A stretch of 48,733 nucleotides of DNA from Pseudonocardia sp. GTDB lineage: Bacteria > Actinomycetota > Actinomycetes > Mycobacteriales > Pseudonocardiaceae. The stretch lies in the NCBI GenBank assembly GCA_025465235.1, contig JAODNO010000340.1:1-48733 (forward strand), given 5' to 3'. Below are positions 4,246 through 43,624 of this stretch, piece by piece. Position 1 is the stretch's first letter. Each line of letters starts with the position of its first letter. The position numbers and the translations under genes were made by a program. Below the pieces are notes generated by a model. It was given only the letters and a program-made list of their open reading frames with translations, was not told the DNA's origin and did not search any database.

Positions 4246-4351
4246 CCGCGAGTCGCCCGTCCCAGTCCCGCGAGTCGCCCGATTTCGGCCCCTGAGTCGC
4301 CCCTCCCACGCACGCGAGTCGCCCCGCTCGGGCACGCGAGTCGCCCGATCT
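4246..4351 (+). repeat. Array 1 of the 22-bp phased repeat (5 units)
   Basis: GAGTCGCC begins at 4250, 4272, 4294, 4316 and 4338, exactly 22 bp apart. The core is (CGC)GAGTCGCCC, containing the odd-length palindrome GCGA-G-TCGC; the ~10 bases between cores vary. It fills the gap between the cyclotransferase stop and the MFS transporter. The same element occurs at 41.2 and 43.3 kb. Confidence 0.9.
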
Positions 4352-4420
4352 GATCATCGTGGCCCGCTTCCCGCGTGACAGGCCTCGCAGAGCGCCCACA
4401 TGGGCCAGAATGACCAGGTG

Positions 4421-6166
4421 TCCCGCTCCGAGTCCACCCCGCCCCGCCGCGGCCGCCGCGGGGGGCGCCGGACGTGGGTCCATGGCGACGGCGAGCGGGC
4501 CACGAGTGTCACGCCACCGCCCCCCGATACCGAGCCGCCGCAGCGCACCCTGCCGGTGGACGTCGAGACACCGCGCCCCCCCACCGCGCCAGAGCGGCCA
4601 CCGTACGAGCCGCGCCGGCACTACCCCTGGCACGACGACCCGGACTACGACCCTGCCGCACACCGCCGCACACCGCCCCCGTCGTGGCCGCCGCCCGCCT
4701 CCGACCAGCGCACGAACGCCGCGGACGCCACTGACGAGGAGCCCAGGACGGAGGCGGCGCCGCCGGTCGCCCCCGGGGAGACCGTGGGTGAGGACGATCG
4801 GCCCACACCCCGGATGCCGAGCAAGCTGACCGTCACGCGCGTGGCGGCTTTCCGCGGACGGCAGCTGACCCAGAACGGGATCCGGGCGTTCCGGCGCGCC
4901 GCCGGGGCCGACGGCGCCGACCGTTCCGGCCTCACGGCGCTCACCTACGCCACGATGGCCACCTACGCGGTTGATGCGGCTGTGGCCGTCGCGCTGGCCA
5001 ACACCCTGTTCTTCGCCGCGGCCACGGCGGAGAGCAAGGCCAACGTCGCCCTCTACCTGGCCATCACGGTGGCACCGTTCGCCGTGGTCGCGCCGGTGAT
5101 CGGGCCACTGCTCGACCGGCTGCAGCGGGGTCGCCGCGCGGCGCTGGCCGTGTCGTTCGCCGGCCGGGCCGTGCTCGCCGTGGTGATGGCGCTCAACTAC
5201 GACACCTGGGTGCTGTATCCGGCCGCACTCGGCGCGCTGGTGCTCAGCAAGTCGTTCTCCGTGCTCAAAGCGGCGGTCACGCCACGCGTCCTGCCGACGG
5301 CGATCACCCTCGTGACGACGAACTCCCGGCTGACGGCGTTCGGGCTGGCCGCAGGCGCCGTCTTCGGTGGAATCGCGGCGGGCGTCGCCGCGCTGGCCGG
5401 TTCGCCGGGCGCGCTGCTGTACACGGCAGCGCTGTCCGTCGTCGGCACCGTGCTGTGCCTGCGGATCCCGCGGTGGGTGGAGTCCACGGCGGGCGAGGTG
5501 CCGGCCGCGCTGCGTACCACCAGACGGGGCAGGCGCAGCCCGATGGGCCGCGGAGTCGTGGTCGCGCTGTGGGGCAACGGTGCCCTCCGCATCCTCACCG
5601 GGTTCCTCACACTGTTCGTCGCGTTCGTGGTGAAGGGTCAGACGGAGGCCGATCCCAGCCGACAGCTGCTCCTGATCGGCATCGTCGGGGCCGCGGCCGG
5701 CGTGGGCTCGTTCGCCGGCAACGCCGTCGGCTCCCGGCGCAGGTCCGGCCGGTCCGACGGCGTCGTGGTGGGGTGCATCGTGGCCGCAGTCGGCTCCGCC
5801 GTGGTCGCCGCCGTGCTGCCCGGAATCGCCACGGCGGCCCTCGTCGGCCTGGTCGGCGCTTCGGCGAGCGCGCTGGGCAAGGTCTGTCTGGACGCCGTGA
5901 TCCAGCGCGACCTTCCCGAGGAGTCGCGTGCGTCGGCGTTCGGCCGCTCTGAGACGGTGCTGCAGTTGGCCTGGGTGTTCGGCGGCGCGCTGGGTGTGCT
6001 GCTTCCGCACAGCACGTTCTGGATCGGGTTCGCGGTGGTCGCTGCCGTTGTCACGCTGGCGGGCGCCCAGACGGCGCTGGTCAGCCGGGGGCGCAGCCTC
6101 CTGCCGTTCATCGGGCACCGCGTGCATGCGGGGGCAGCGCCGCAACCGGCCCGCACCGTGCGCTGA
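4421..6166 (+). CDS. Major facilitator superfamily transporter
   Basis: About 581 residues. The first ~130 residues are a Pro/Arg/Asp-rich cytoplasmic tail of low complexity; the remainder has roughly a dozen hydrophobic segments separated by short charged loops (for example LLDRLQRGRRAA after the second or third helix), typical of an MFS carrier. The substrate cannot be told. GTG 4421 is preferred because CAGAAT lies 6 nt upstream, like the leaderless starts elsewhere in this window; ATG 4400 in the same frame would add seven residues. The neighbourhood MFS, DUF2771 lipoprotein and cold-shock protein resembles a conserved mycobacterial/pseudonocardial block (from memory, not checked). Confidence 0.8.
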   Translation, partial: SRSESTPPRRGRRGGRRTWVHGDGERATSVTPPPPDTEPPQRTLPVDVETPRPPTAPERPPYEPRRHYPWHDDPDYDPAAHRRTPPPSWPPPASDQRTNAADATDEEPRTEAAPPVAPGETVGEDDRPTPRMPSKLTVTRVAAFRGRQLTQNGIRAFRRAAGADGADRSGLTALTYATMATYAVDAAVAVALANTLFFAAATAESKANVALYLAITVAPFAVVAPVIGPLLDRLQRGRRAALAVSFAGRAVLAVVMALNYDTWVLYPAALGALVLSKSFSVLKAAVTPRVLPTAITLVTTNSRLTAFGLAAGAVFGGIAAGVAALAGSPGALLYTAALSVVGTVLCLRIPRWVESTAGEVPAALRTTRRGRRSPMGRGVVVALWGNGALRILTGFLTLFVAFVVKGQTEADPSRQLLLIGIVGAAAGVGSFAGNAVGSRRRSGRSDGVVVGCIVAAVGSAVVAAVLPGIATAALVGLVGASASALGKVCLDAVIQRDLPEESRASAFGRSETVLQLAWVFGGALGVLLPHSTFWIGFAVVAAVVTLAGAQTALVSRGRSLLPFIGHRVHAGAAPQPARTVR

Positions 6167-6177
6167 CGCGCCGACCG

Positions 6178-6183
6178 TAGGGT
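6178..6183 (+). promoter_or_regulatory. -10 box TAGGGT, leaderless start of the DUF2771 gene
   Basis: TAGGGT is followed by exactly six bases and then GTG 6190, with no Shine-Dalgarno sequence. This is the standard actinobacterial leaderless arrangement (TANNNT, then start at or next to +1). Confidence 0.6.
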
Positions 6184-6189
6184 GGACGG

Positions 6190-6726
6190 GTGCCGCGGCG
6201 ACTCCTGTTGGGCCGACTCCTGCCTGGCCGACCCCGGTCGGCCCGTCTCCCTCTGGGCCGCCTGGTCCCGCTACCGGTGGCCGCGCTCCTCCTGGTGGCC
6301 GCCTGCAGCAGCAGCCAGCCCCCGCCCCAGGTGACGTTCGCGGCGGGGCAGGCAAGCGTCGTAGCACGGCCCGCCCAGTACTGCGACCTCAAGCTCACCG
6401 ACTGCACGGGCGACCCCGCAGCCCCCGTGGTGCTCACCGTGCCGGTCGGCACACCGCTGAAGGTGACGGTGCCGCACGAGATCGCCGCGACACCGTGGCA
6501 GGTGGTGTTCAGCTATCGCGACGCGGGCGGCGCCCAGACCGACGGGCGTAGCCCGGTGTTCGCCCCGAACGCACAGAGCGACTACACCCTCGAGCTCCCG
6601 GCACCGGAGGACCAGCTCGTCGGCGCCCAGGTGCAGCAGTTCGGACCGCCGCCGCAGGCCAACGCGGAGACCGGGGAGATCGAGTTCCCGATACGGGCGA
6701 GCTGGGTGCTCTCGACGAAGGGGTGA
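6190..6726 (+). CDS. DUF2771 family lipoprotein
   Basis: 178 residues. An Arg-rich N-terminus and hydrophobic stretch lead to a lipobox LVAAC with Cys39. The mature part is a small beta-rich domain with a Cys pair (YCDLKLTDC) and fits the actinobacterial DUF2771 family, whose role is unknown. The start is set by a TAGGGT box 6 nt upstream, implying a leaderless message separate from the MFS gene that ends 23 bp earlier. It is convergent with the cold-shock gene, 6 bp apart, with no obvious terminator between them. Confidence 0.75.
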   Translation: MPRRLLLGRLLPGRPRSARLPLGRLVPLPVAALLLVAACSSSQPPPQVTFAAGQASVVARPAQYCDLKLTDCTGDPAAPVVLTVPVGTPLKVTVPHEIAATPWQVVFSYRDAGGAQTDGRSPVFAPNAQSDYTLELPAPEDQLVGAQVQQFGPPPQANAETGEIEFPIRASWVLSTKG

Positions 6727-6732
6727 GACCGG

Positions 6733-7128
6733 CTACCCGTCGAGGTCCCGGGCGACCGCGCGCACGACCTCGGCCGCAAGCTTGGATGCGCGTCGGTCGG
6801 GGTAGCGACCGCGCCGTAGGTCGGGCTGCACCTTCGTCTCGAGCAGCCGGATCATGTCCTCGATGAGGCTGTGCAGGTCCTCGGCCGGGCGTCGGGTGGC
6901 CTCGACGACCGACGGCGGCGTGTCGACCAGCCGAACCGACAGCGCCTGCGGCCCGCGACGGCCCTCCGCCATCCCGAACTCGACGCGCTGCCCCGCCTTG
7001 AGCGCCTCCACCCCGGCCGGCAGCGCGGCCTTGCGGACGTAAACGTCCTCGCCGCCGTCCTGAGCCAGGAACCCGAAGCCCTTGTCGGAGTCGTACCACT
7101 TGACCCTGCCGGTCGGCACCCTGCTCAC
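6733..7128 (-). CDS. Cold-shock domain protein with C-terminal extension
   Basis: 131 residues from GTG 7128. The N-terminal cold-shock (OB) domain has the RNP1-like motif [15 protein letters not shown] and a shortened RNP2-like segment [10 protein letters not shown]; it should bind single-stranded RNA/DNA. After about residue 70 there is a ~60-residue helical tail not found in the small CspA proteins. GTG 7128 is preferred because GAGGA lies four bases upstream; GTG 7119 in the same frame, three residues later (VPTGRV...), is an equally common annotation choice. It points toward the DUF2771 gene. Confidence 0.85.
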
Positions 7129-7315
7129 CCGTTCCTCGATCGACCCTGCGCCATGCGCTGCCTCGGTGCACCGCATGACGAACGCGCCCCTGATGCATGG
7201 GCCGTCACTTGGTCGAGCCCGTCGAGCGACACCGGGACGCGTGCGACCACCCTAGACCGCCGATACCCCTCCGCGCAGCCGTCCGAACGGCAGCAGGCCG
7301 CTCCTGGGTGACGTC

Positions 7316-8977
7316 CTACGCGTTGCGGATCGTCGCAGCGTCGCGGAGGTGGAGCAGCTCCACGCTCTTCTCGCGCATCTCGACCTTCCGGACCTTGCCC
7401 GTGACGGTCATCGGGAACCCGTCGACGACCACCACGTACCGCGGGATCTTGTAGTGCGCCAGCTTGCCGCCCGCGAACTCCTTCACCGCCTCGGCGGTGA
7501 GCTCGGGCGCGCCGTCGCGCAGCGTCACCCAGGCGCAGAGCTCCTCGCCGTACTTGGCGTCGGGAACACCGACGACCTGCGCGTCCAGCACGTCGGGATG
7601 GGTGTAGAGGAACTCTTCGATCTCCCGCGGGTAGACGTTCTCCCCGCCGCGGATGACCATGTCCTTGATGCGTCCGGTGATGTTGACGTAGCCGTCGGAG
7701 CTCATCACGGCCATGTCGCCGGTGTGCATCCAGCGGGCGCGGTCGATGGCTTCGGCGGTCTTCTCCGGCTCGTCCCAGTAGCCGAGCATGACGGAGTAGC
7801 CACGGGTGCAGAGCTCGCCCGGCTCACCGCGGGGCAGGGTCAGACCCGTCTCCGGGTCGACGATCTTGACCTCAACGTGCGGGTGCACCCTGCCCACGGT
7901 CGAGACACGCAGTTCCAGCGAGTCGTCGGCACGGGTCTGCGTCGAGACCGGAGACGTCTCCGTCATGCCGTAGCAGATCGTCACCTCCGTCATCCCCATG
8001 CGGTCGACCACCTGCTTCATCACCTCCACAGGGCACGGCGAGCCTGCCATGATCCCGGTACGCAGCGAAGACAGGTCGTAGCTGTCGAAGTCGGGATCGT
8101 TGAGCTCGGCGATGAACATCGTCGGCACGCCGTAGAGCGACGTGCAGCGCTCCTGCGCCACCGCGCTGAGCGTGGCCTTCGGGTCGAACCCCTGCCCGGG
8201 GATGACCATGGTGGCGCCATTGGTGGTGCAGCCGAGGTTGCCCATGACCATGCCGAAGCAGTGGTAGAAGGGCACGGGGATGCACACCCGGTCCTCTGAC
8301 GTGTAGCCGCACAGCCGTCCCACGAAATAGCCGTTGTTGAGAATGTTGTGGTGGCTGAGCGTTGCGCCCTTCGGGAAGCCCGTGGTGCCCGACGTGTACT
8401 GGATGTTGATCGGGTCGTCCGGGCTCAGCTCGGCCTGGCGCCGGGCCAGCTCGGCGCGTTCGCCCTCCCGGCCCGCCGCCACCAGCTCGTCCCAGCCCGG
8501 AGTGCCGATGAGGATCACCCGGCGCAGGGCGGGGCAGCTCGGGCGCACCTCGGAGATCATCGCGCCGTAGTCGGAGGTCTTGAAGCTGGTGGCTGCCACC
8601 AACACCGAGATCCCGGCCTGGTTCAGCACGAACTCCAGCTCGTGCGTGCGATAGGCGGGGTTGATGTTGACGAGGACGACGCCGATCTTCGCCGTGGCGT
8701 ACTGCACGAGCGTCCACTCGGCGACGTTGGGCGCCCAGATGCCGAGGCGGTCGCCCTTCGCCATGCCTGCGGAGAGCAGGCCCATCGCGATGACGTCGAC
8801 GTCGTCCCGTAGCTCCGCGTAGGTCCACCGGCGGCCGGTCGGCACCTCCACCAGCGCCTCCGCGTCGGGCTGGCCGGACGCCGTTCGGTCGAGGTTGTCG
8901 CCGATGGTGTCGCCGAGCAGCGGCACGTCGGACGTGCCGGACGCGTAGGAGGGGACGGCGGGGGCAGCAGCGGACAC
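7316..8977 (-). CDS. Fatty-acyl-CoA synthetase (AMP-binding family)
   Basis: 553 residues of the ANL superfamily: ATP plus carboxylic acid gives acyl-AMP, then acyl-CoA. Visible motifs: A3 [11 protein letters not shown] (about residue 195), A5 [10 protein letters not shown]7/A8 [19 protein letters not shown] and [19 protein letters not shown], and the A10 lysine region MTVTGKVRK. The pattern is that of medium/long-chain FadD-type ligases. GTG 8977 is chosen because AAAGG sits 7-8 nt upstream; ATGs at 9010 and 9028 in frame would add unlikely residues. It is divergent from serS. Substrate length cannot be read from sequence. Confidence 0.85.
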
Positions 8978-9103
8978 GGCACGGCCTTTCGTCTGCGTCA
9001 GATGCCTCATCTCTGTGGCACAGCGCACATCCTGCGACGATCAGTGCCACGCCCGCCACCTCCGGAAGGGGAGGCGGCGCGGAATCCCGGTCGCGCCCGG
9101 CGA

Positions 9104-9109
9104 TACCCT
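9104..9109 (+). promoter_or_regulatory. -10 box TACCCT, leaderless start of serS
   Basis: TACCCT is followed by six bases and then ATG 9116, without a Shine-Dalgarno sequence, so serS is probably translated from a leaderless transcript. Confidence 0.6.
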
Positions 9110-9115
9110 CGTGTG

Positions 9116-10396
9116 ATGCACGACCCCCGCGTCCTGCTCGATCCCGCCACCGACGCCGTCCGCAAGCTCGCCCGGCGTGGCTTCACGCTGGACGTCGCGT
9201 CTCTGGAGAAATTGCTGGCCGGGCGCAACTCGGCCATCCAGCGCGGGGACGAGGCACGGGCCGAGTCCAAGCGGGTCGCCACCGCGGTGAAGGGCGCCGG
9301 GCGGGAGGGAGACCCTCAGGAGCGTGATGCGCTCGTCGCCCGCGCCCGCGAGCTCAAGGGCATCGTCGCCGCCGCTGAGGAGGAGCACCGGGAGCTCGAG
9401 GCGGAGCTGCAGGACTTCCTGCTCAGCGTGCCCAACCTGCCCAGTGACGACCTGCCCGACGGCGCCTCCGACGAGGACGCGGTACAGGTCCGCGCCTGGG
9501 GTGAGCCGCGGCAGCTGGACTTTCCCCCGCTCGACCACGTCGACCTCGGCGAGAAGCTGGGCATCCTCGACCTGCCGCGCGCCACGAAGCTCGCCGGTCC
9601 CCGGTTCGCTGTGCTGCGGGGAAAGGGTGCCGCGCTCGAGCGGGCGATCGCCCGCTACCTGCTCGACCTGCACACGGAGCGACACGGGTACCTCGAGTGG
9701 TCGGTGCCCACCCTCGTCAATCGCGCCACGATGACGGGAACCGGCCAGCTGCCGAAGTTCGAGCAGGACCTGTTCAAGACCGGCGTGGCCGACCGCGAGC
9801 TTTACCTCATCCCCACCGCCGAGGTGCCACTCACCAACCTGCACGCCAAGGAGACGCTCGCCGTCGAGGACCTCCCGCTGGCCTACACCGCACACACCCC
9901 GTGCTTCCGCTCGGAGGCCGGCTCCTACGGCCGCGACACGCGCGGGTTGATCCGGCTGCACGAGTTCTCGAAGGTCGAGCTCGTGCGGGTCGTCGAGGCC
10001 GAGCACTCCCGCGACGAGCTCGAGGTGCTGCTCTCGCACGCCGAGGCGGCGATGCAGGGGCTCGGGCTGGCCTACCGCGTGGTCAAGCTGGCAGCGGGCG
10101 ACATCGGGTTCTCGGCAGAGTTCACCTACGACATCGAGGTATGGCTGCCGGGGCAGCAGAAGTACCGCGAGATCTCTTCGGTGTCGAACTTCGGCACGTT
10201 CCAGGCGCGCCGGGCCGGTATCCGCACGAAGGCCAAGGATGGCAGGCGCGGTTTTGCCGCCACGCTCAACGGCTCGGGCCTGCCGGTCGGCCGCACCCTC
10301 GTCGCGATCCTGGAGCAGGGTCAGCAGGCAGACGGGTCGGTTCGTATCCCCGAGGCGCTGGTGCCGTACACGGGCTTCGCCGAGCTGACGCCGTAG
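9116..10396 (+). CDS. serS: Seryl-tRNA synthetase
   Basis: 426 residues, the usual size for bacterial SerRS; charges tRNA-Ser (and tRNA-Sec where present) with serine. Residues 1-~110 form the long antiparallel coiled-coil tRNA-binding arm (charged, with runs such as AAAEEEHRELEAELQDF). The class II core follows: motif 2 FRSEAGSYGRDTRGLIRLHEF, with the serine-binding TAEVPLTNLH ahead of it, and motif 3 LNGSGLPVGRTLVAILE near the C-terminus. ATG 9116 begins the typical MHDPRVLLDP and lies 6 nt after a -10 box. No tRNA gene is seen nearby. Confidence 0.96.
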   Translation: MHDPRVLLDPATDAVRKLARRGFTLDVASLEKLLAGRNSAIQRGDEARAESKRVATAVKGAGREGDPQERDALVARARELKGIVAAAEEEHRELEAELQDFLLSVPNLPSDDLPDGASDEDAVQVRAWGEPRQLDFPPLDHVDLGEKLGILDLPRATKLAGPRFAVLRGKGAALERAIARYLLDLHTERHGYLEWSVPTLVNRATMTGTGQLPKFEQDLFKTGVADRELYLIPTAEVPLTNLHAKETLAVEDLPLAYTAHTPCFRSEAGSYGRDTRGLIRLHEFSKVELVRVVEAEHSRDELEVLLSHAEAAMQGLGLAYRVVKLAAGDIGFSAEFTYDIEVWLPGQQKYREISSVSNFGTFQARRAGIRTKAKDGRRGFAATLNGSGLPVGRTLVAILEQGQQADGSVRIPEALVPYTGFAELTP

Positions 10397-11049
10397 CCGC
10401 ACGGGCGGGCCGCCCGCGCGTCCGTGTGAGCACCCCCTCGGATGCACGATCAGATTGCCGATGAGGGGATGTCCGGATGAACGCGGACGTGCCGCGTCGA
10501 GAACTTCCGGAGCGGATCCGGGAGAACCGAGAACATCGAGGGCGTCGACCGCTCCACGATTCTCACATCGCGGCATTCTCGTCCACGCGGCGATCGGATC
10601 TCCTGGCGTCGTTTGCCGAATATGAAGTGCATTGGGGTCAGGTAAGCAAGCGCCGGGGAGATTTGTCCGGTACGTGACCGTTGGGGTCGCGGGTGACGGT
10701 GTGGTTCGGCGACGGCCACCCCGTGCTCCCCGGCCGGGACGAGCCACGGGCGCGACTCCGGTCCGGGCCGCGGGCGGGGCCGGTCGGCCCGCTATCCCGA
10801 TCATCGCCCGGGTGCTCGTCGGCGACGAGAGGACCGGCTACCCTCCGACAGCCGCCACACGATCGTGTCGGCTCGCTTACTGACCTCGAGGGGGGCGAAG
10901 ACCCCAGCTTTACCTTCCGCTGTCAGTGCGGTCCTGTCGCTGCACGCCTGTCCATCTCCTCCCGCCCGTGGAGGGGGCAGATCGGCACAGCATTTGACTT
11001 AATACATATGAACTCATAGGTTACCCGCGAATGTCCCACGGAGGGGTGC
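10397..11049. other. Intergenic region between serS and potA, no convincing gene
   Basis: About 650 bp. Just after the serS stop a GC-rich two-part hairpin (10400-10426: CACGG/CCGTG outside, GCGGG/CCCGC inside) may end serS transcription, though no T-run follows. The centre (about 10560-10680) is lower in GC. Short frames here (for example 10477-10677) lack a protein-like composition, ribosome-binding site or family resemblance. The last 60 bp hold the potA promoter. I see no tRNA or recognisable riboswitch. Confidence 0.5.
10994..11022 (+). promoter_or_regulatory. Sigma-70-type promoter of the pot operon
   Basis: TTGACT (10994-10999) and TAGGTT (11017-11022) are separated by 17 bp, a near-consensus housekeeping promoter in unusually AT-rich sequence. 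Transcription would begin near 11029, about 20 nt ahead of potA, leaving room for the GGAGGGG ribosome-binding site at 11040-11045. Confidence 0.65.
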
Positions 11050-12123
11050 GTGCCGTCAGTAGCTCGTTCCGTCCCGGTCACACCGCCACAGCAAGCCGGC
11101 GAGACTCCGGCGATCTCTCTGCGGGGCGTGCGCAAGGAGTTCCCCGGCGGCATTGTCGCCGTCCATGACCTCGACCTCGATATCGCCGAGGGCGAGTTCG
11201 TCACGCTCCTGGGCCCGTCGGGCTCGGGAAAGACCACGGTGCTGCGGCTCATCGCGGGATTCGAGCAGCCGACCGCGGGCACGGTGCTGCTGCGCAGTCG
11301 TGACGTCACGGCCGCGCCGCCGTTCGACCGCGACGTGCACACCGTCTTCCAGGACTACGCACTGTTCCCGCACCTGTCGGTGCTGCGCAACGTCGAGTAC
11401 CCCCTACGGATCGCGAAGGTTCCACGCGCCGAACGGCGGGAGCGTGCACTCGCCGCGCTGGCCACCGTGCGGCTGGAAGCGCTGGGCGACCGGAGCCCGG
11501 CCGCGCTCTCGGGCGGCCAACGTCAGCGCGTCGCCCTCGCCCGTGCGCTGGTGAACCGGCCTGCGGTGCTCCTGCTCGACGAACCGCTCGGCGCACTCGA
11601 CCTCAAGCTGCGCGAGCAGATGCAGATCGAGCTCAAGGAGATCCAGCGGACGTCGGGGATCACGTTCGTGTTCGTCACCCACGACCAGGACGAGGCCCTC
11701 ACCTTGGCCGACCGCACCATCGTCTTCTCGGAGGGCCGGGTGGAGCAGGCCGGGTCGGCGCAGGAGGTCTACGAGCGGCCCGCGTCGGCGTTCGTCGCCG
11801 GGTTCGTCGGCACGTCGAACGTGCTGGCGGGGGCGGACGCTCGCGCCGTGCTCGGTCGCGACGGCAGCTGGAGCATCCGGCCGGAGAAGATCACCGTCAC
11901 GGCCGCTGACCACACAGCTCCGGCGGGATGGACGACCGCGGTCGGTGTCGTCGAGGAGCTCGTCTACACCGGGGCCACCACGCGCTGCGTCGTCGCCCTC
12001 GAGGCCGGCGGCGTGCTGTCGGCACTGCTGCTCAACGGGGGCGGCAACGACCTGCCGACGCTCGCGCGCGGACAGGACGTCCGGCTCTCGTGGCGGCCGG
12101 AGCACGAGATCCACCTCATGTGA
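11050..12123 (+). CDS. potA: Polyamine-type ABC transporter ATP-binding protein
   Basis: 357 residues. Walker A GPSGSGKTT (about residues 56-64), Q-loop VFQDYALFPHLS, signature [15 protein letters not shown], Walker B VLLLDEP and the H-loop THDQDEAL are all intact, followed by a C-terminal TOBE-type regulatory domain (about 280-357). This is the spermidine/putrescine (CUT1-like Fe3+/polyamine) ATPase class and powers import through the two permeases downstream. GTG 11050 follows GGAGGGG with a short 4-5 nt gap. It is the first gene of potA-potD-potB-potC-aldehyde dehydrogenase. Polyamine specificity is inferred from the whole operon rather than this subunit. Confidence 0.85.
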   Translation: MPSVARSVPVTPPQQAGETPAISLRGVRKEFPGGIVAVHDLDLDIAEGEFVTLLGPSGSGKTTVLRLIAGFEQPTAGTVLLRSRDVTAAPPFDRDVHTVFQDYALFPHLSVLRNVEYPLRIAKVPRAERRERALAALATVRLEALGDRSPAALSGGQRQRVALARALVNRPAVLLLDEPLGALDLKLREQMQIELKEIQRTSGITFVFVTHDQDEALTLADRTIVFSEGRVEQAGSAQEVYERPASAFVAGFVGTSNVLAGADARAVLGRDGSWSIRPEKITVTAADHTAPAGWTTAVGVVEELVYTGATTRCVVALEAGGVLSALLLNGGGNDLPTLARGQDVRLSWRPEHEIHLM

Positions 12124-12212
12124 GCCATCTAGGAGGGCCTGTGCCCGCCGGGAGGATCGAGTGGCGCCGTCGCCCGACCGCGCTTCTGAGAGAGCAGGAG
12201 AGAGAAATCCAT

Positions 12213-13415: not shown

Positions 13416-13501
13416 CCATGAGTTGCGGCCGGGCGCGGCCGACCCCCCCTCGGGCCGCGCCCTGTCGCTTCCTCAGGTGACAGGAGAGAGAAAGGAGGCC
13501 A

Positions 13502-14365: not shown

Positions 14366-14373
14366 AGGCCACC

Positions 14374-33287: not shown

Positions 33288-33327
33288 AGAGCCACGTTCA
33301 TGCAGGCCGGTGCATGAACGTGGCTCT
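33288..33327. terminator. Bidirectional terminator, 17-bp perfect stem
   Basis: AGAGCCACGTTCATGCA (33288-33304) pairs perfectly with 33311-33327 around a 6-nt loop (GGCCGG). It lies between the convergent PepSY and coxG genes, and CTCTT follows the stem on the plus strand. The stem is unusually long and perfect. Confidence 0.75.
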
Positions 33328-33351
33328 TCTGCGACTCGCGGCAGAGGCCCC

Positions 33352-34140: not shown

Positions 34141-34251
34141 CGGTCAGTCTCCTCCTCGGACCCCGTTCGGCCGACTGACCGACCGGGGCGTAAAAGCCGT
34201 GAACGCCCACTCCGGTGATCGGAGCAGGCGTCCACGGTGGAACGACGAACG

Positions 34252-35103: not shown

Positions 35104-37577
35104 TGGACCTCTCCCTGCGGGTTGTTCGGGTCGATCGAGCCCAGGCCCGCGCCCGGTGAATGGGTGTCGACCGGGGTCTTCTGGGTGGAACGGCCCTGCG
35201 CCTCCTGAATCGCCCGCCAGACGCGCTGCGACGTGGTGGGCATCTCGACGTCGGTGACGCCGAGGTGCCGGATCGCGTCGAGCACGCCGTTGATGATCGC
35301 GGGGGTCGAGGCGATGGTGCCGGCCTCGCCGACGCCCTTCACACCCAGCGGGTTCGACGTGGCCGGGGTGCTGACCACCCGGGTGTCGAAGCTCGGCAGG
35401 TCGGCGGCCGACGGCAGGGTGTAGTCGACGAACGTGCCGTTGACCAGCGTGCCCTGCTCGTCGTAGTTGGCCTCCTCGAACAGGGCCTGCGCGATGCCCT
35501 GTGCGAGACCGCCGTGCACCTGGCCCTCGGCGATGAGCGGGTTCACGACGTTGCCGATGTCGTCCACGCAGACGTACTTGCGCAGGTCGACGTGGCCCGT
35601 GTCGGTGTCGATCTCGATCGCGGCGAGGTGCGTGCCGTGCGGGAAGGAGAAGTTCTCCGGGTCGTACACGGCGTCGGAGTCCAGCGAGGGCTCCATGTCC
35701 TCCGGGTAGTCGTGCGCCATGAACGCGGCGAACGCGATCTCCTGGATGGCCTTGCCCTTGTCGGTGCCGCGGACGGTGAAGGTGCCGCCCGAGAACTCGA
35801 TGTCGTCCTCGGACGCCTCGAGCAGGTGGGCGGCGAGCTTCTTGGCCTTCGCGACCACCTTCTCGGCCGCCTTGACGATCGCGATGCCGCCGACGACCAG
35901 CGACCGCGATCCGTAGGTGTCGAGCCCCTTCGGCGAGATCTGCGTGTCGCCGTGCAGGACCTCGACATCCTCGAACGGCACGCCGAGCTGGTCGGCAACG
36001 ATCTGGCTGAACGCCGTCTCGTGGCCCTGGCCGTGCGGTGATACTCCGGTGATGACCTCCACCTTGCCGGTGGCCAGCATCCGGATGCTGGCGGCCTCCC
36101 AGCCACCCGCCCCGTAGGACAGCGAGCCGAGCACCCGGGACGGCGCGAGGCCGCACATCTCGGTGAACGTCGAGATGCCGATGCCGAGCTGCACCGGGTC
36201 GCCCGACCGGCGCCGCTCCTCCTGCTCGCGGCGCAGGCCCGCGTAGTCGAACAGCTCCATCGCCTGCTGCGTGGCCTGCTCGTAGTTGCCCGAGTCGTAG
36301 GTGAGTCCGCACACCGTGGTGAACGGGAACTCCTCGTGCTTGATCCAGTTCTGCTCGCGCAGCTCCAGCGGGTCGCGACCGAGCTCGACGGCGAGCTCGT
36401 CCATGATCCGCTCGATCGCGAAGGTGGCCTCCGGCCGCCCGGCGCCGCGGTAGGCGTCAGTGAGCGTCTTCGTGGTGAAGACGTTGGTGCAGGTGAACTT
36501 GTAGGCCGGGAACTTGTAGATCGAGTTGAACATGAACGCGCCGAGGATCGGCACCCCCGGCCCGACCAGGCCGAGGTAGGCACCCATGTCGGCGAGGAGC
36601 TTCACGTCCAGGCCGGTGACGGTGCCGTCCTTCTTCGCCGTGATCGTGATGTCCTGGATCTGGTCACGGCCGTGGTGCGCGGCGAGCAGCGACTCCTAGC
36701 GCGTCTCGGGCCACTTGACCGGCTTGCCGAGCTTCTGCGCGAGCACCACGCAGAGCATCTCCTCCGGCACCACGCCGATCTTGCCGCCGAAGCCGCCGCC
36801 CACGTCCGGGGCGATGACCCGCAGCTTGCTCTCCGGCACGCCCAGCGTCACGGTCGTCATCGTCCGCAGGATGTGCGGGATCTGCGTGGACGAGTAGAAG
36901 GTGATCTGCTCGCCGGCGGGGTCGACCACGGCGGAGCGTGGCTCCATGAACGCCGGGATCAGCCGCTGCTGGCGGAACCGGCGCTTGACGACCACCTGGT
37001 CGGGGTCGGCCTCGGCAGCGGCGATCGCCTCGGAGACGTTGCTCCCGGTGCCGGCCTCGCCGGAGTCGAACACCCAGGTGGCGCTCACGTTCGAGCCGAG
37101 ATCGGGGTGGACGAGGGTGGCGCCCTCTGCGGTCGCCGCCTCCATGTCGAGCACCGGCTCGAGCGGCTCGTAGTCGACCTCCACGAGGTCGGCGGCGTCG
37201 CGGGCCTCGGCGGCCGAGCGCGCGACGACGACGGCAACGCCCTCGCCGGCGAAGTGCACGGTGCTGCTGGCGAGCAGCGGGCGCTGTGGGGCCTTCTGGT
37301 CGGGCGTGATCGGCCAAGCGCAGGGCAGGCCGACGCCCTCGACGCCCAGGTCGGCCGCCGTATAGACACCCACGACACCGGGAGACTGCTTGGCCGGGGA
37401 CGTGTCGATGCCGGTGATCGTGGCGTGCGCGATCGGCGAGCGCACCACCGAGAGGTGCAGCGTGCCCGCCGGCGTGATGGCATCGGTGTAGCGACTGCGC
37501 CCGGTGATGAGGCGCGCGTCCTCCTTGCGGGTGCGGGATTTCCCGAACTCGACGGTGGGTTCGGCGATTGCGGTCAT
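35100..37577 (-). pseudogene. coxL: Molybdenum hydroxylase large subunit (form II CoxL-like) with in-frame amber codon
   Basis: 825 codons in one frame from ATG 37577. The reading frame is interrupted only by TAG at 36698-36696 (codon 294), in VKWPETR-stop-ESLLAAHHGRDQ; the family has Ser there, so TCG to TAG is a single substitution. Everything downstream is conserved: LTDAYRGAGRPEATF carries the form II active-site motif AYRGAGR (form I, true CO dehydrogenase, has AYxCSFR), and VKGVGEAGTIAS holds the catalytic Glu. If the stop is real, only a 293-residue fragment is made, lacking most molybdopterin contacts; an internal restart is unlikely. Gene order S-L-M also fits form II. True substrate is unknown. 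Confidence 0.85.
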
Positions 37578-38096
37578 CTACTCGCCACCTCCGGCAACGG
37601 ACACCGGGGACTGGGTGTCAGCCGTGGACCCCGGCTTCATCTTCGCCGCGGCGCTCTGCACGGCGCGGACGATGTTCTGGTAGCCCGTGCAGCGGCAGAG
37701 GTTGCCCTCGATGCCCTCACGGACCTCCTGCTCGTTCGGATCGGGGTTGTCCCCGAGCAGGTCTATGGCCTGCATGATCATGCCCGGCGTGCAGTAGCCG
37801 CACTGCAGCGCGTGGCACTCGTTGAATGCCTCCTGCATCGGGTGCAGCTTCCCGTCGCGGGCGATGCCCTCGATCGTGGTGATCTCGGCGCCGTCGACCT
37901 GCACGGCCAGCACCGAGCAGGACTTCACGCTCTGCCCGTTCAGATGAACGGTGCAGGCACCGCAGTTGCTGGTGTCACACCCGACGAGAGTGCCGGTCTT
38001 GCCGAGCCGTTCCCTCAGGTAGTGGACCAACAACGTACGGGGCTCCACGTCGTCGGCGTATTCCACGCCGTCGACCGTGACCCGGACCTGTGCCAT
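37578..38096 (-). CDS. coxS: Molybdenum hydroxylase 2Fe-2S subunit (CoxS-like)
   Basis: 172 residues with two [2Fe-2S] sites: plant-ferredoxin-type [15 protein letters not shown] (about 41-55), with a later Cys in KSCSVL, and the helical-bundle site [10 protein letters not shown] ... [11 protein letters not shown] (about 100-145). It transfers electrons from the molybdenum centre to FAD in CoxM. GAGGAGAAG precedes ATG 38096. Its TAG abuts the coxL ATG with no gap. Upstream, 274 bp separate it from mftF on the same strand; this gap shows no gene. Confidence 0.9.
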
Positions 38097-38370
38097 GAGT
38101 CTTCTCCTCAACCGCGACGGCTGTGTCGCACCGCGCCTGCATACTTCCGAGGGACCGGTGGTAGTGGTCGAACCACTGTCCGGACCGCCACGCCGTTGTG
38201 GCGGCCGACACATCTCACCGCTGTTGATCGGCCCGTGCAACCGTACCCCTCCCATCGGTCACCGAGCCCGAAGCGACAGAGGAGCTCGCACATCGCGCAC
38301 CTCCAATCAACTCCGCTGATGCGGGAGATATCGGCGCTTTGATCCGTGACAGCGGAGTTACCGTAGGGAC

Positions 38371-39909
38371 TTATTCACCCTTTCGGATTAGCCCTGACGG
38401 ACGGCCACTATCGGACGCCCCGGCTCGGCCGGCTGGAGGATGTCCCGCGGCGAGGGCTGCAGGACCGATCGGCCGGAGCGGTTCGACTGTCCGGTGCCGC
38501 AGCGCGCCCCACCACAGCCCGGCGCCGTACGCCAGGTCATCGAGCCTGTGGGCCAGCACGTATCCGGGCAGCCCCGGTTTCGCGTGCGGGTCGCGGCCAC
38601 GGTGGCGCCACCAGTCGACGATGCCCTCGGCCACTGCGACGAAGATCACCGTACGACGCGCCCGGCGCGACACCAGGCAGGCGGCTGCGGACACCGGCCA
38701 GTAGTGGCGCGTCACCGCGTCGGCCGTCTGCGCGAGCGTGCCCACCACCCCCATCGCGACGAGCCGGGCCGCGGCGGCGCGTGGGCGGTCGACGGGCAGC
38801 CTGCGCGCCAGCCTCTCGGCAGCCACGACGCTGACCGCCACCGCCGCCTGCACTGCACGCGGCGTGCCGAGCAGCAGCAGCGCGCCGACCGCCGCCGACC
38901 ACGGGCTCAGCACCATCGGCGGCACGGAACCGGGATGCCGCAGCGCGAGAGGCGCCGCTCCCGTGCCGTAGTAGGCCTTCCGCAGCCACCACGCGCGGAG
39001 CGTCGTCCGGTGATCGTGGGCGACCCTGGCCGCAGGCTCGTACCGCAGTCGCCAGCCTGCCGCGTGCAGGCGCAGGACGAGGTCGACGTCCTCGGCCACC
39101 TGCATGCCCTCGTCGAAACCGGCGCCCACCGCGGCGCGGCGCACGAGCAGGGCGGCGCTCGGGACGTACGCCACGCGCGAGCGCGGCACCACCAGCGCCG
39201 GGTCCGGGCCGAGATCCAACGAGGACCGCACGGCTTCGTACGCCGCCAGCAGTCCGTCGATCCGAGGCAGGGTTCCCGCCGGGGGCAAGGCGACGATCCG
39301 CGGCGCCGCAAGGCCGACGGCCGGATCGGCGAAGCGCGCCAACAGCGGTTCCAGCCAGCCGGTCAGGGGCACGACATCGGAGTCGAGGAACGCGACGAGC
39401 GGGGTGGTCGCCGCCGCGAGCCCGGCATTGCGCGCCGCGGCCGGGCCCCGCGCGGACGAGTGCCGCAGCACCGTGGCGCCCGCCCCCTCGGCCACCGCCC
39501 GCACCGCGGCGGCGTCCGCTGAGCCGTCGTCCACGACGAGCAAACCACCCAGCCCTGACGGCAGCGCGGCGAGGAGCCGCGCCACACCAGCGACCCGGTC
39601 CTTCACGGGCACGACGACCGTCACCTCCGCACTGGACGGCACAGCCGAAGCAGGTTCGGCAATCGGGTGCCCGATCCCCGCGTCGAGCAGCCTGCGGGCC
39701 AGCGCGGCCGACGTCGGGCCGGTGACCGTGCACGTGCCGTCCGCGAGCAACTGCCGGGCGGCCGCAGACAGGCGCAACAGCCGTGGCGGCGCCCCACCGA
39801 GCAGCACCGCGCCGTCGTCGAGCCTGCGGGTCCGCCTGTCCAGCGCGACCCGGAACCCCACCGGCAGCGAACCCTGCCCCGGTCGGATCCCCGACCCCGT
39901 CACCGTCAT
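38371..39909 (-). CDS. mftF: Mycofactocin glycosyltransferase
   Basis: 512 residues. After an N-terminal ~110-residue PqqD-like region (FRVALDRRTRRLDDGAVLLGG), a GT2 (GT-A) domain follows: VTVVVPVKDRVAGVARLL, LLVVDDGSAD and VAFLDSDVV (DxD-type), then RVAYVPSAALLVRR and DLVLRLHAAGWRLRYEP. Several hydrophobic helices lie in the C-terminal third. This architecture is that of MftF, which adds beta-1,4-glucose units to premycofactocin. ATG 39909 is the family start (MTVTGSG). It is separated from mftE by a convergent phosphatase gene and repeat array 2, so it needs its own promoter. It is divergent from the phosphatase. Confidence 0.85.
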   Translation of the reverse strand: MTVTGSGIRPGQGSLPVGFRVALDRRTRRLDDGAVLLGGAPPRLLRLSAAARQLLADGTCTVTGPTSAALARRLLDAGIGHPIAEPASAVPSSAEVTVVVPVKDRVAGVARLLAALPSGLGGLLVVDDGSADAAAVRAVAEGAGATVLRHSSARGPAAARNAGLAAATTPLVAFLDSDVVPLTGWLEPLLARFADPAVGLAAPRIVALPPAGTLPRIDGLLAAYEAVRSSLDLGPDPALVVPRSRVAYVPSAALLVRRAAVGAGFDEGMQVAEDVDLVLRLHAAGWRLRYEPAARVAHDHRTTLRAWWLRKAYYGTGAAPLALRHPGSVPPMVLSPWSAAVGALLLLGTPRAVQAAVAVSVVAAERLARRLPVDRPRAAAARLVAMGVVGTLAQTADAVTRHYWPVSAAACLVSRRARRTVIFVAVAEGIVDWWRHRGRDPHAKPGLPGYVLAHRLDDLAYGAGLWWGALRHRTVEPLRPIGPAALAAGHPPAGRAGASDSGRPSGLIRKGE

Positions 39910-40011
39910 GCAGACCTCCGGACGCCGCTGGAGTACCCGCGCAGGGTAGGACTCCGCTCCTGCCGGCGTCGTGATCGGCTCGACGGGGTGGCCACGTGGG
40001 AGCCTTGGCCG

Positions 40012-41157
40012 ATGACCACCCCGGTCCTGCCCGACTACGGCCATCGCTCCCTCACCGAGGTGATGCCCGCCCTCCTCGCGGCGCTCGGAGTCCCGGGCCA
40101 TGCTCCCGAGCTGACGTTCGAGCCTGTCCGCGCTGCGGCACTGTTACTCGTCGACGGTCTCGGCAGCGAGCTGCTGCGCCGCCATGCGGCCGACGCGCCG
40201 TTCCTGGCGAGCCTGCCCGACGCCGGACCGCTCACCGTCGGGTTCCCGTCCAGCACCTCGATCAGCCTCGCGTCGCTCGGAACGGGGCTGCCGCCGGGAG
40301 CGCACGGGATGGTCGGAATCTCCTTCCGCGCCGACGACGGCGAACTGCTCGACACGCTGCGCTGGACGTCACACGGCACGGGCAAGGCGGTGGACCTGCG
40401 GGACCGGCTGCCGCCCGAGGACGTGCAGGCGGCCCCGACCGCGCTGGAACGGGCGGCTGCCGCCGGGGTCGAGGTCACCGTCGTGTCGAGAAAGGAGTTC
40501 AGGGGCTCCGGGCTCACCCGGGCGGCCCTGCGCGGCGGCAACTTCCGGGGCACGCACGCCCTCGGCGACCTCGCCGCCGAGGTCATCGCCGCGGTCACCG
40601 GGCCGGGGCCGCGGCTCTGCTACGGCTACCACGCCGACCTCGACGGGCTGGGTCACCTGCGAGGACCAGGCACCATGGCGTGGCGGCTGCAGCTCAGCCA
40701 GGTCGACCGGCTGGCCGGGCTGATCGCCGAGCACCTGCCGCCCGGCGCCGTACTCGTGATCACCGGCGACCACGGCATGGTCGGCGTCGACCGGATCTTC
40801 GACGCAGACACCGATCCCGTCCTGCAGCAGGGCGTCCAGCTGCTCGGCGGCGACGCCCGCGCCCGGCACGTCTACGCCAGGCCCGGCGCGGCGGAGGACG
40901 TCCTGGCTACCTGGCGCTCGGTGCTGCACGACGACGCCTGGGTGGTGCCGGGCGAGCAGGCCGTTGCGGAAGGCTGGTTCGGGCCGGTCGCCCCGCATGT
41001 TCAGCACCGCATCGGCGACGTCGTCGTGGCTGCTCGGGGCACCGCCGCGATCGTCCGGTCGGTGGCCGAGCCGGTGATCTCCCGGCTACCGGGCCAGCAC
41101 GGCTCCCTCTCACCGGAGGAGCAACTCGTCCCCCTCCTGGTAGCCCACACCCCCTGA
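40012..41157 (+). CDS. Alkaline phosphatase-superfamily nucleotide pyrophosphatase/phosphodiesterase
   Basis: 381 residues of the AP superfamily (nucleotide pyrophosphatase-like). Metal and nucleophile motifs: LLLVDGLGSELL (first Asp), FPSSTSISLASLGTGLPPG (nucleophile Thr/Ser region), YHADLDGLGHLRG (Asp/His ligands) and TGDHGMVG (Asp-His pair). It would hydrolyse a phosphodiester or pyrophosphate; substrate unknown. It lies inside the mycofactocin locus between mftE and mftF but on the other strand; whether it acts on a sugar nucleotide used by MftF is speculation. Confidence 0.8.
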   Translation: MTTPVLPDYGHRSLTEVMPALLAALGVPGHAPELTFEPVRAAALLLVDGLGSELLRRHAADAPFLASLPDAGPLTVGFPSSTSISLASLGTGLPPGAHGMVGISFRADDGELLDTLRWTSHGTGKAVDLRDRLPPEDVQAAPTALERAAAAGVEVTVVSRKEFRGSGLTRAALRGGNFRGTHALGDLAAEVIAAVTGPGPRLCYGYHADLDGLGHLRGPGTMAWRLQLSQVDRLAGLIAEHLPPGAVLVITGDHGMVGVDRIFDADTDPVLQQGVQLLGGDARARHVYARPGAAEDVLATWRSVLHDDAWVVPGEQAVAEGWFGPVAPHVQHRIGDVVVAARGTAAIVRSVAEPVISRLPGQHGSLSPEEQLVPLLVAHTP

Positions 41158-41162
41158 CCCAC

Positions 41163-41392
41163 CCGCGAGTCGCCCCTTTCCCGCCCCCGAGTCGCCCCCT
41201 TCCCGCCGATGAGTCGCCCAACCCGCGCCCCTCCGCGACCTGATCTACGACTCGCGATACGGGGGACTCGCAGGGGCGGTTCCAGCAACTCACGGTCGGA
41301 GGACGGGCGACTCGCGGGCGGAATCCGGGCGACTCGCGGACGCAGAACGGGCGACTCGCGGGCGGGATTCGGGCGACTCGCGGGCGGGGGTC
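41163..41392. repeat. Array 2 of the 22-bp phased repeat, two opposed blocks
   Basis: Plus-oriented cores GAGTCGCC begin at 41167, 41189 and 41211; minus-oriented cores GGCGACTC begin at 41306, 41328, 41350 and 41372, preceded in phase by degenerate copies at 41262 and 41284. Every step is 22 bp. The blocks face each other between the convergent 3' ends of the phosphatase and mftE, giving an overall dyad. Confidence 0.9.
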
Positions 41393-42092
41393 AGGTCAGG
41401 TGGGCTCGGGGGTCCAGGTGCCAGCGGGGCAGAGCGTGTTGTAGCGCCGCCGTCATACCGGCCAGCAGACGCGCCCCCTCCTCGGCGGTGGCGCCCAGCG
41501 GGTCACCCAGCACGCCGTTCGGAGTCGCCGCGGCCAGGCCACCACTGCGCAGGGTCGGGAGGAGCTCCGCCAGCGGCGCGGTATTGCCCGCCTCGGCCAC
41601 CTCCCATCGAACGAGGGCTGGATCGAGCGCGAGAAGGATGGACGTCTCCGTGCGCCCCGCATGGGCATCCCCTCCCGGCGCGGCACAGCCGAACCAGGCC
41701 GCGTCGCGACCCTCGTCGCGCAGTTGGAGGACGGCCTCCGGCACTGTCGGCAGGTTGCCGCCGTGCCCGTTGACGAACACCAGCCGCTCCGCCCACGCCC
41801 CCGCTGACCGGCCCAGCTCGACCAGCACCGCGCGCAGGGCCGTGTGCCCGATCGACAGCGTGCCGGGGAAGCCCTCGTGCTCACCGGAGGCGCCGTAACT
41901 CAGCGCCGGCGCGACCAGCAGGGACGGGTCCCCGTCGGCAACGCGAAAGGCGACGGCGGCCGCGATCCGCGCGTCGGTGTCGAGCGGCAGGTGCGGTCCG
42001 TGCTGCTCCACTGAACCCACCGGCACCAGCACGGTGCGCGGCACCCCACCCTGCAGCTCGGTCCAGGTGCGTTCACCGAGCCGGGCGCTCAC
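41391..42092 (-). CDS. mftE: Mycofactocin peptidase (creatininase family)
   Basis: 233 residues. Creatininase-fold metal ligands: VGSVEQHGPHLPLDTDARIA (Glu, His, Asp), NGHGGNLPT, and GDAHAGRTETSILLAL with a second Glu. MftE cleaves the modified MftA to free the cyclised Val-Tyr product (AHDP) from the rest of the peptide. GTG 42092 overlaps the stop of the upstream broken oxidoreductase gene (GTGA), showing that the two were once coupled. Its own frame is intact. Confidence 0.9.
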   Translation of the reverse strand: MSARLGERTWTELQGGVPRTVLVPVGSVEQHGPHLPLDTDARIAAAVAFRVADGDPSLLVAPALSYGASGEHEGFPGTLSIGHTALRAVLVELGRSAGAWAERLVFVNGHGGNLPTVPEAVLQLRDEGRDAAWFGCAAPGGDAHAGRTETSILLALDPALVRWEVAEAGNTAPLAELLPTLRSGGLAAATPNGVLGDPLGATAEEGARLLAGMTAALQHALPRWHLDPRAHLT

Positions 42093-43624
42093 AGTGCCAC
42101 GCCCGCATGGTGTCCGTCGATGACGGCGGCGTGCGCCCCGCGGGGCGCCAGGCCGTCGCCGATCCGGTGCACGGCCGGGCCACGATCGCGCAACGCTGTC
42201 CACAGCTCGTTCTCCGGCATCGCCGGCACGGCGCAGACCACCCAGTCGTACGCGGCCTCAGACACCGAGCCGACGGTGTGATGCAGCACGGTGAGCCGGA
42301 CGCCGGGCGCAGCACGCGCGGCAGCCAGGACGGTGCGGTCGGGCGACATCACGATCCCGGCCCCGTGCGCCAAGCGGTGGAACCGCTCCATGTCCAGGGT
42401 GAGCCCGAGGTCATGCCCGGCGTCGCGATCTCCACCGCGCAGCCCCGTGCGGCGAGCAGTTCGGCAACCGATTTTGCCTGGTGGAAGCCGAGCTCGTCGT
42501 ACACCAACACCGACGGCTCCGCGCGGCCGCACAGCACGTCCCGCACGTCGACCACGCGGTCGAGTTCGCGCGCCCCGGTGCCCGCAGTCGATCGCCAGTG
42601 CGCAGTCGATCTCGCGCCGCTCGCCGGTCCAGACGTGCTCCAGCACCGCTCGGCCATCGCGCACATCGAGCAGCAGCGAGCACAGCTCGCGCGACACCCC
42701 GGCCTGCTGCAGCCGTGTGTTGGCGGGAACGAGGTCACCGGTGCGGCCGAGCTGGGCGGCAGCCACCGGATCCCGGGTGACGATCGCCGTCGGACGCCCC
42801 GCGGCGGCCACCTGCTCGGCGACCCCGACCCCCGTCCAGTCGCCGATCGGGTCGTGCACGACGACGGTGCCGCCGGCGGCCAGCGCCGCCGCGGCCGATC
42901 CCGCGGCGAGCACGGCGGCCTCGAACTCGGCGGCGTCGAGTACGGGGCAGTCGCTCCGGTAGGGCCGCGAACCGGTCGCGAGCAGCACCGCGGTGCCGGC
43001 GCGTTCCGCGGCGTCCAGGTCCGGGACGCCCACTTCGACGCCCGTCTCCACCTCGACCCCCAGCCGGGCCAATTCCTGCTCCCACCATGGCATGAGCACG
43101 CCCATCTGCTCCCGGCCGGCGACGGCTGCGGCGAACAGCAGTGCCCCGCCAAGCCGACCCGACCGCTCCATGAGCCGCACCCGATGCCCTCGCAAGGTAT
43201 GCACCCGCGCAGCCGCCATCCCGGCCGGCCCCCCACCCACCACGAGCACCGACCGTCGCCGCACGGTGTGCGTGCGGGAATCGACCGTCGGCGCCTCCTC
43301 GATCTCGGGAGCGTGAGCCGCGGGGCGACTCGCGGGCGGAAGACGGGCGACTCGCGCACGGATTGCGGGCGACTCGCGGGCGGGAAACGGGCGACTCGCG
43401 CGGCGTCGGCGGCACGAGGGGCGCGCTCGTAGGGCCAGTCGGAGTTCCGGACGCTCGCCACCTCGGGATCACGCCCGCTCCGCCTGCTGCCCGCCCGGCG
43501 TAGTAGGGCGACGTGCCGGTCGGAGAACTCACGGCAGCGCGAGGTTCGTCTCGTGCGGGCTGAACATCACCCGGCTGGGCGCTAGCCGTCCGCGGAGGGT
43601 GACGGGCCGGATCAGGCTCGGCAC
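42089..43624 (-). pseudogene. Broken FadH/Old-Yellow-Enzyme-type oxidoreductase in the mycofactocin locus
   Basis: The N-terminus from GTG 43624 reads PSLIRPVTLRGRLAPSRVMF then SPHETNLALP and hits TGA near 43530; FSDRHVA, then GAGVI and VRNSDWPYERAPRAA continue in other frames to about 43410. There repeat array 3 begins, and coding resumes at about 43318 with EIEEAPTVDSRTHTVRRRSV and LVVGGGPAGMAAARV, the FAD/NAD(P) domain. About 300 codons of the TIM barrel, including the FMN and 4Fe-4S parts, are absent. Two more shifts flank a stretch reading RELDRVVDVRDVLCG to VEIATPGM: one near 42580, another near 42409, where adding a C gives MTLGLTLDM. Intact members (~650 residues) are known mycofactocin-system companions. 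Here it occupies the usual mftD position. Confidence 0.85.
43319..43410 (-). repeat. Array 3 of the 22-bp phased repeat (4 units)
   Basis: GGCGACTC begins at 43324, 43346, 43368 and 43390, each exactly 22 bp apart; a typical unit is GGCGACTCGCGGGCGG plus a variable RAAACG-like tail. It sits inside the broken oxidoreductase gene, between its N-terminal barrel remnant and its FAD/NAD domain. Confidence 0.9.

Follow-up and report, generated by a model that had tools for sequence, protein, structure and literature searches.

Exactly phased 22-bp repeat arrays at transcription-unit ends in Pseudonocardia and other genera

Arrays in the window and the 22-bp unit

The window analysed here is a stretch of 48,733 nucleotides from Pseudonocardia sp., namely positions 1 to 48,733 of contig JAODNO010000340.1 (assembly GCA_025465235.1, forward strand). 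It carries four blocks of a short repeat whose units follow one another at a step of exactly 22 bp, as an earlier note made from the letters alone had described. All the core positions claimed for the four blocks were recovered, and we add here that such arrays are placed at transcription-unit ends, a point absent from the earlier note. The arrays of the window and the genes upstream of them are the following.

3267..4244, + strand: gene upstream of array 1, Glu_cyclase_2 (PF05096)
4246..4355, + strand: array 1, five 22-bp units with core GAGTCGCC at 4250, 4272, 4294, 4316 and 4338
40012..41157, + strand: gene upstream of array 2a, Phosphodiest (PF01663)
41163..41228, + strand: array 2a, three units with cores at 41167, 41189 and 41211
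41253..41384, - strand: array 2b, six units, exact at 41306, 41328, 41350 and 41372, degenerate at 41262 and 41284
41391..42203, - strand: mftE, mycofactocin peptidyl-dipeptidase (TIGR03964, 316 bits, cut-off 172), the same-sense gene upstream of array 2b
43315..43402, - strand: array 3 (the fourth block), four exact units with cores at 43324, 43346, 43368 and 43390
43730..44980, - strand: mftC, mycofactocin radical SAM maturase (TIGR03962), lying 327 bp upstream of the fourth block in the same sense

Array 1 begins 1 bp past the TGA stop (4242-4244) of the glutamine-cyclotransferase-like gene and ends 44 bp before the start of an MFS gene at 4400. Array 2a begins 5 bp past the stop of the Phosphodiest-family gene and 6 bp separate the end of array 2b from the mftE stop, the two arrays together filling most of the gap between their convergent genes. 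The fourth block is flanked by mftC and by a FAD-dependent oxidoreductase-like gene (42089-43264, - strand), and the 327-bp gap that separates it from mftC has no called gene inside. The mycofactocin genes mftF, mftE, mftC and mftB lie within 36696-45609 of the window, with a CO-dehydrogenase-like gene near them.

Exact copies of GAGTCGCC stand 22 bp apart 12 times in the window and in none of 100 dinucleotide shuffles (0/100), and Tandem Repeats Finder, which is independent of the motif search, returned a period of 22 at all four blocks; the claimed step thus stands. It also held in a genome-wide core count, which the earlier note had named as a possible refutation: the window's own genome (G000; 6.8 Mb in 731 contigs, 89% complete) contains 96 strict unit pairs at 22 bp (47 + 49), against 0 for the reversed pattern. 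Among the loci from named genomes (L041-L136, at least 96 loci, mostly from Pseudonocardia xinjiangensis and P. nigra among the 80 listed), same-strand spacings were 22 bp (282), 44 bp (154) and 66 bp (78), with 21 bp seen five times. The same phase was found in 200 kb of a further genome, G001, that had not been selected for arrays, where GAGTCG spacings below 70 bp were 22 bp eight times and 44 bp three times, each of the other listed spacings occurring once; the 22/44 peak was not found in the corresponding 200 kb of G027. When 390 intergenic pieces of G001 (740 kb, mostly fetched for its arrays) were scanned for 6-mer phase without a preset motif, the GAGTCG family at 22/44 gave by far the strongest signal, in 19-21 pieces. 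The scan of 423 pieces of G027 detected 22-bp arrays of a GCGAGTT type in three, and G027 is therefore array-poor rather than array-free. Arrays of P. xinjiangensis and P. nigra (e.g., L063, L071, L077 and L103) are often found some 50 bp or less from the locus end, apparently a contig end, and draft assemblies therefore probably understate both the length and the number of arrays.

In its own orientation the unit is GCGAGTCGCCC plus some 11 variable bases, and arrays range from 2 to 10 units. Each position of GAGTCGCC is conserved in at least 98% of 187 ungated middle units. We compared core and spacer between neighbouring units in four sets of ungated middle units, from P. nigra (67 units; 33 loci), P. 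xinjiangensis (62 units; 40 loci, both species split among the loci listed), G000 (68) and G001 (37). The fraction of core sites differing from the neighbouring unit was 0.009, 0.004, 0.006 and 0.034, respectively, whereas that of spacer sites was 0.230, 0.368, 0.374 and 0.268. The combination of invariant phase with variable spacers, as originally proposed, is thereby borne out (0.4-3.4% against 23-37%), and a fixed phase in which the core is tightly constrained while the spacer drifts would be consistent with a sequence-specific DNA-binding factor. The spacer half does drift as had been stated, but it is not free, since it is enriched in A/T and carries, by eye, a weak GTTC at +9..+12 in several genera, about one turn from GAGTC. 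Adjacent spacers were identical in 35/225 pairs (16/62, 8/60, 4/66 and 7/37 across the four sets), which indicates local tandem duplication.

The odd palindrome GCGA-S-TCGC, which the earlier note had given as the form of the core, is confined to some species and finds no support as the essential feature. GAGTC is constant across species and the next four bases vary by lineage, being GCCC in G000, mostly GCTG in G001, GGCA in G003, GCGG or GGGG in G007 and CCCC in G019, and CTAC, CAAC, GTAC or GAAC in other genera. The GAGTCGG, GAGTCCC and GAGTCCTAC cores of other species disrupt the dyad; the site is therefore asymmetric and its conserved element is GAGTC. Where arrays stand back to back, their start-to-start distance was 20-23 bp in 15/30 and 34-36 bp in 8/30, with varied intervening sequence, and no discrete distances were seen among 14 face-to-face arrays.

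Position relative to genes and distribution across genomes

Genes were called with our own trained script. Most loci in the position, orientation, gap and folding tests were fetched because they bear arrays; clusters without a called gene on one side were excluded (29 in L041-L136), and duplicate array sequences were counted once. Only 5/192 arrays of three or more units overlapped coding sequence. The 169 gene-flanked clusters of two or more units fell into 96 tandem, 67 convergent and 6 divergent gaps, compared with 569, 170 and 277 among 1016 background gaps. Three of the four sets showed a depletion of divergent gaps (p 1e-4, 6e-7 and 0.026), and three an enrichment of convergent gaps (p 0.005, 5e-6 and 0.006). 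As many as 60 of the 96 tandem clusters begin within 25 bp after a stop codon, while 5 end within 25 bp before the next start. When the array was subtracted, the residual tandem gap was below 30 bp in 2/94 gaps with an array versus 519/994 without (Fisher p 3e-25). Together, the gap classes, the proximity to stop codons and the residual gaps indicate that the arrays mark transcription-unit boundaries and avoid gaps of the operon-interior type, which answers the question of gene position that the earlier note had raised as a check.

The orientation of arrays relative to the upstream gene is weakly biased, with 35 one-way tandem clusters in sense and 22 in antisense; these counts do not sustain the strict orientation behind stop codons that the window had suggested. 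At 4/4 loci of G675 no more than 5 bp separate the array from a stop codon. Opposed arrays face each other at 7/8 loci of G125, several of them enclosing a central palindrome that is near-perfect; at L374 the opposed arrays occupy the whole stop-to-stop space.

A comparison across Pseudonocardiaceae, also suggested in the earlier note, returned three-unit GAGTC arrays in 78/390 family genomes and 11/46 genera. The window's own core had matches in 9/62 genus genomes and 14/390 family genomes, and three GAGTYG units were found in 40/62 genus genomes. In the class sample 22/394 genomes matched, mostly at 1-4 places, and besides the window's own genome only G675 (71) and G730 (12), both of family f29, reached 10 or more. 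The array family thus extends to other genera and to one other family, with a changing core and a patchy distribution. Sister pairs in a one-gene tree (30 rows) differed strongly in three-unit GAGTYG matches, with 133 in G001 versus 2 in G027 and 80 in G000 versus 5 in G004; with GAGTC, G001 had 141 and G027 had 1. The near-identical G015 and G016 have the same units in the listed arrays that we compared by eye, and a viral collection gave 2 pattern matches.

Reversed-pattern controls were mostly zero overall, though not always. Reversed GAGTYG matched once each in G006, G015, G016, G026 and G030 and five times in G060, and G006, G026 and G030 have no forward match; reversed GAGTC reached at most 8 in genus genomes (in G059). 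In genomes of genus g8 the reversed and forward GAGTC counts were 34 versus 9 (G130), 14 versus 14 (G126) and 9 versus 9 (G132), which we think, judging by eye, reflects CTGAG recurring at the same unit phase. The three-unit count of G017 rose from 14 with GAGTYG to 249 with GAGTC; in 400 kb of this genome (1.0-1.4 Mb) we found no intergenic array, and 12 two- or three-unit matches to a looser core all fell in called genes.

Other repeats were seen at the 3′ flank of hisI. At L332 (G061) a second repeat, CCTCGCAGA, with a step of about 20 bp and inverted pairs, adjoins a GAGTCG array in the same gap. The inverted-pair repeats at L347 (G021; GCACACCGACT) and L344 (G043; GCACAGCAACTG / CAGTTGGTGTGC) are unlike the GAGTC family, and L346 (G022) has tandem units of the TTCTTGAGGGGCCTCCGGCGGCGCCTGCGG type.

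Interpretation of the arrays

Our best reading, held tentatively and at somewhat less than an even chance, is that the arrays are cooperative double-stranded DNA sites for a putative protein at transcription-unit ends, serving as a roadblock terminator or an insulator. The arrays would act in cis at the 3′ limits of transcription units, and each 22-bp unit, made of GAGTC and about four lineage-dependent bases, would provide one asymmetric binding site. A sequence-specific putative protein would occupy the units cooperatively, two helical turns apart and all on one face of the DNA. Just past the stop codon, the multi-subunit complex so formed would obstruct or insulate transcription, either as a roadblock terminator or by keeping read-through from passing between convergent or neighbouring units. 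A binding protein, its cooperative binding and an effect on transcription are what we infer here. The further proposal of a bacterial protein-array terminator is rather doubtful; in it, one lineage-specific protein would coat the phased sites and stop or insulate RNA polymerase without a hairpin, its specificity would shift with the bases after GAGTC, and upon loss of the protein the arrays would vanish almost cleanly.

In many transcription units of actinobacteria no T-run terminator can be recognised. A widespread array that sits at the expected terminator position and avoids operon-like gaps is a candidate for another way to end or insulate transcription, and the shifts of the core across species offer a natural experiment on a regulator and many sites changing together.

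Several observations weigh against the proposed boundary protein. G027 is nearly without arrays although it is a close relative of G001, so any function must be dispensable or replaceable. The depletion of divergent gaps was not significant in G001 (2/20 clusters, p 0.075), nor was the enrichment of convergent gaps in the set from other genera (p 0.32), and all gene calls come from one caller of our own. Avoidance of operons could alternatively arise from selection against inert inserts. At the 3′ side of mscS, the array of G001 lies in a gap that is 22-30 bp in G027, G024 and G011, where mscS may be cotranscribed with the next gene. Finally, spacers of facing arm units were more alike than those of non-facing ones in G001 (0.54, 14 pairs, versus 0.43, 49 pairs), which would favour pairing between the arms.

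The arrays might instead be a non-coding mobile or selfish repeat, spread by a core-recognising, transposase-like or recombination activity and persisting only where the harm is slight, past transcription units. The patchy distribution and the sister species with few or no arrays fit such a repeat, as do two loci at which G001 and G027, which share about 92% identity and are colinear across the 200 kb compared, differ by presence and absence. G001 has an array between convergent stops at 3728812-3728995, where the same stops are about 4 bp apart in G027, and another at 3741273-3741458, where about 10 bp lie between them in G027. In all four sets, more two-unit windows matched another locus at 19/22 or better than column shuffling would predict (P. 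nigra 17/2.5, P. xinjiangensis 6/0.8, G000 23/8.7, G001 21/14.6), and some loci are therefore related by copying; matches at 21/22 or better were found in 6/62 windows of P. nigra and 3/37 of G001 (0.5 in shuffled G001), and in none of the other sets. Yet the mean best match between loci of G001 was 18.3/22, against 18.2 after column shuffling, whereas a single founder since the split from G027 predicts that most would reach at least 20. The bulk of the set was thus not spread by copying since that split, and a recent copy-paste spread of the whole set was not supported, though every set exceeds the shuffled level in near-matches. Inert copies would, moreover, be expected to decay equally in core and spacer, Y1 transposase, the one type searched, occurs in only 5/62 genus genomes, and no target-site duplication was seen by eye in two clean G001/G027 pairs. 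We regard a selfish repeat as unlikely on balance. As to the history of the arrays, we infer either an older set of which G027 has lost the greater part, or local growth de novo.

Ortholog comparisons, for which the 30 best loci were taken out of 61, 60 and 59 matching genomes, bear on the age of the sites. The 3′ side of the phosphodiesterase gene (30 orthologs) carries species-specific arrays in G000, G003, G009, G023 and G034, and single units in a few more genomes. On the 3′ side of mscS, G001 has its array and G019 two units with another core, and no array was found in G027, G024 or G011. To judge from these comparisons, the pattern would suit old sites whose core changed in step genome-wide; it may also reflect repeated insertion at favoured places.

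Alternatively, the transcribed array could act as an RNA element, forming hairpins that serve as an extended bidirectional intrinsic terminator or as a stabiliser of 3′ ends. We folded the loci alongside up to 40 control 3′ flanks per set. Inverted loci were very stable, with z < -2 in 51/51, as for any inverted repeat. One-way arrays, which make up 34/40 of the loci folded in G000, had a share with z < -2 close to that of the controls (0.32/0.25 in G000, 0.27/0.42 in G001, 0.38/0.25 in P. xinjiangensis/nigra and 0/5 vs 0/8 in genera g8/g6), and their energy per base was weaker than that of control flanks in each of these sets. Their median z did lie below that of the controls in two sets (-1.44/-0.60 in G000 and -1.50/-0.76 in P. 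xinjiangensis/nigra), and in G675 4/4 one-way loci were below -2. A hairpin as the common denominator was thus not supported for most one-way arrays, which fold little better than control flanks.

The comparison of arms was similarly divided. Besides the difference in G001, facing and non-facing arm units scored 0.68/0.64 in g8/g6, both more alike than units of different loci (0.55), and 0.44/0.40 in G000; in the largest set, P. xinjiangensis/nigra, facing and non-facing arms were equal (0.40 and 0.39, with 0.41 for different loci). In favour of RNA pairing, one G001 array (5449573-5449723) is replaced in G027 by a 13-bp GC hairpin, and genus g8 has central palindromes flanked by opposed arrays, near-perfect at L369, L375 and L376 (the GTTCTTTACTCGCGAGTGAAGAAC type) and perfect at L378, a similar palindrome recurring at different loci. 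No T-run terminator was present in 40000-45000 of the window, the only stretch scanned, which holds three of the four blocks. The conserved core and the largely sequence-independent geometry favour, on balance, a protein on double-stranded DNA. RNA pairing is likely not the common principle of the arrays, an RNA element being a quite unlikely explanation overall, and pairing may have a role at inverted loci.

A topology site, at which a nucleoid protein or topoisomerase would load where convergent transcription builds positive supercoils, as has been discussed for REP/BIME, would account for the convergent enrichment (67/169 clusters against 170/1016 in the background) and for phased sites on one DNA face. 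It is improbable, however, given that tandem clusters outnumber convergent ones, that the arrays hug stop codons and that a ubiquitous topoisomerase leaves the species-specific cores and the near-absence from sister species unexplained. The clt repeats used by FtsK/TraB-type pumps are short asymmetric direct repeats and are present on Streptomyces chromosomes; clt-like transfer-recognition sites for such a DNA pump of conjugative elements would share the asymmetric core in direct repeats and the lineage-specific last bases, but they leave the position directly past transcription units unexplained and no strand polarity was seen by eye among the G001 positions listed, making them a most improbable explanation.

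Comparison with known systems

The 22-bp phased arrays seem to be undescribed. The earlier note had recognised no known element in them, and we found none either, with no Rfam family at gathering score in the window, the only region searched, and no description in open PubMed Central for the core strings, which gave two unrelated hits, or for general terms, judged from listings and abstract openings. The separation from CRISPR made there also holds. A core of 8-11 bp with spacers of 11-14 bp differs from a CRISPR repeat of at least about 23 bp with spacers of about 30 bp, and the neighbours searched were mycofactocin and metabolic genes, no cas search having been made elsewhere. A miniature inverted-repeat transposable element, with terminal inverted repeats, a target-site duplication and a conserved length, does not match, most G000 loci being one-way, arrays having 2-10 units and the two clean G001/G027 pairs showing no duplication by eye. 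Replication iterons are direct repeats of about 22 bp with two-turn spacing; in contrast, the G000 arrays are scattered over 50 sampled clusters and not gathered at a single origin.

REP/BIME occur singly or in inverted clusters that favour gene 3′ ends and convergent pairs. The present arrays are likewise dispersed, extragenic and near gene 3′ ends, but their unit is not palindromic across species and is directly phased at exactly 22 bp. REP elements are characterised as high-copy extragenic repeats (PMC3733652). We rejected a REP with its RAYT as the general cause of the arrays, since Y1 transposase (PF01797) was found only in G004, G007, G018, G041 and G043 and in 0/24 genus genomes with at least 50 GAGTYG matches, G000 included. 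A REP-type unit palindrome or hairpin was likewise set aside, the dyad being broken in the cores named above and one-way arrays folding little better than control flanks, and the earlier statement that the element is not REP is upheld on both counts.

With intrinsic terminators the arrays share a place directly past the last gene. They seem to differ from them in that no T run was present in the stretch scanned, most G000 loci are one-way without a marked hairpin, and the exact sequence is conserved.

Another comparison is with factors that bind DNA in register. The known sites of BldC and of recombination directionality factors lie in promoters or attachment sites. In two reports, BldC binds direct repeats in helix register as cooperative multimers, and recombination directionality factors likewise bind in register (PMC5859096, PMC7498355). 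Our arrays are placed otherwise, at transcription-unit ends.

That placement recalls the Sal-box of mammalian ribosomal DNA and its factor TTF-I, a system in which tandem protein-binding sites downstream of transcription units are thought to stop the polymerase. The Sal-box is eukaryotic, belongs to one gene family and has an unrelated sequence, and the protein of the present arrays is putative. Like the Sal-box sites, however, the arrays consist of tandem short sites just past transcription units, and the constraint on their core is compatible with a TTF-I-like roadblock site.

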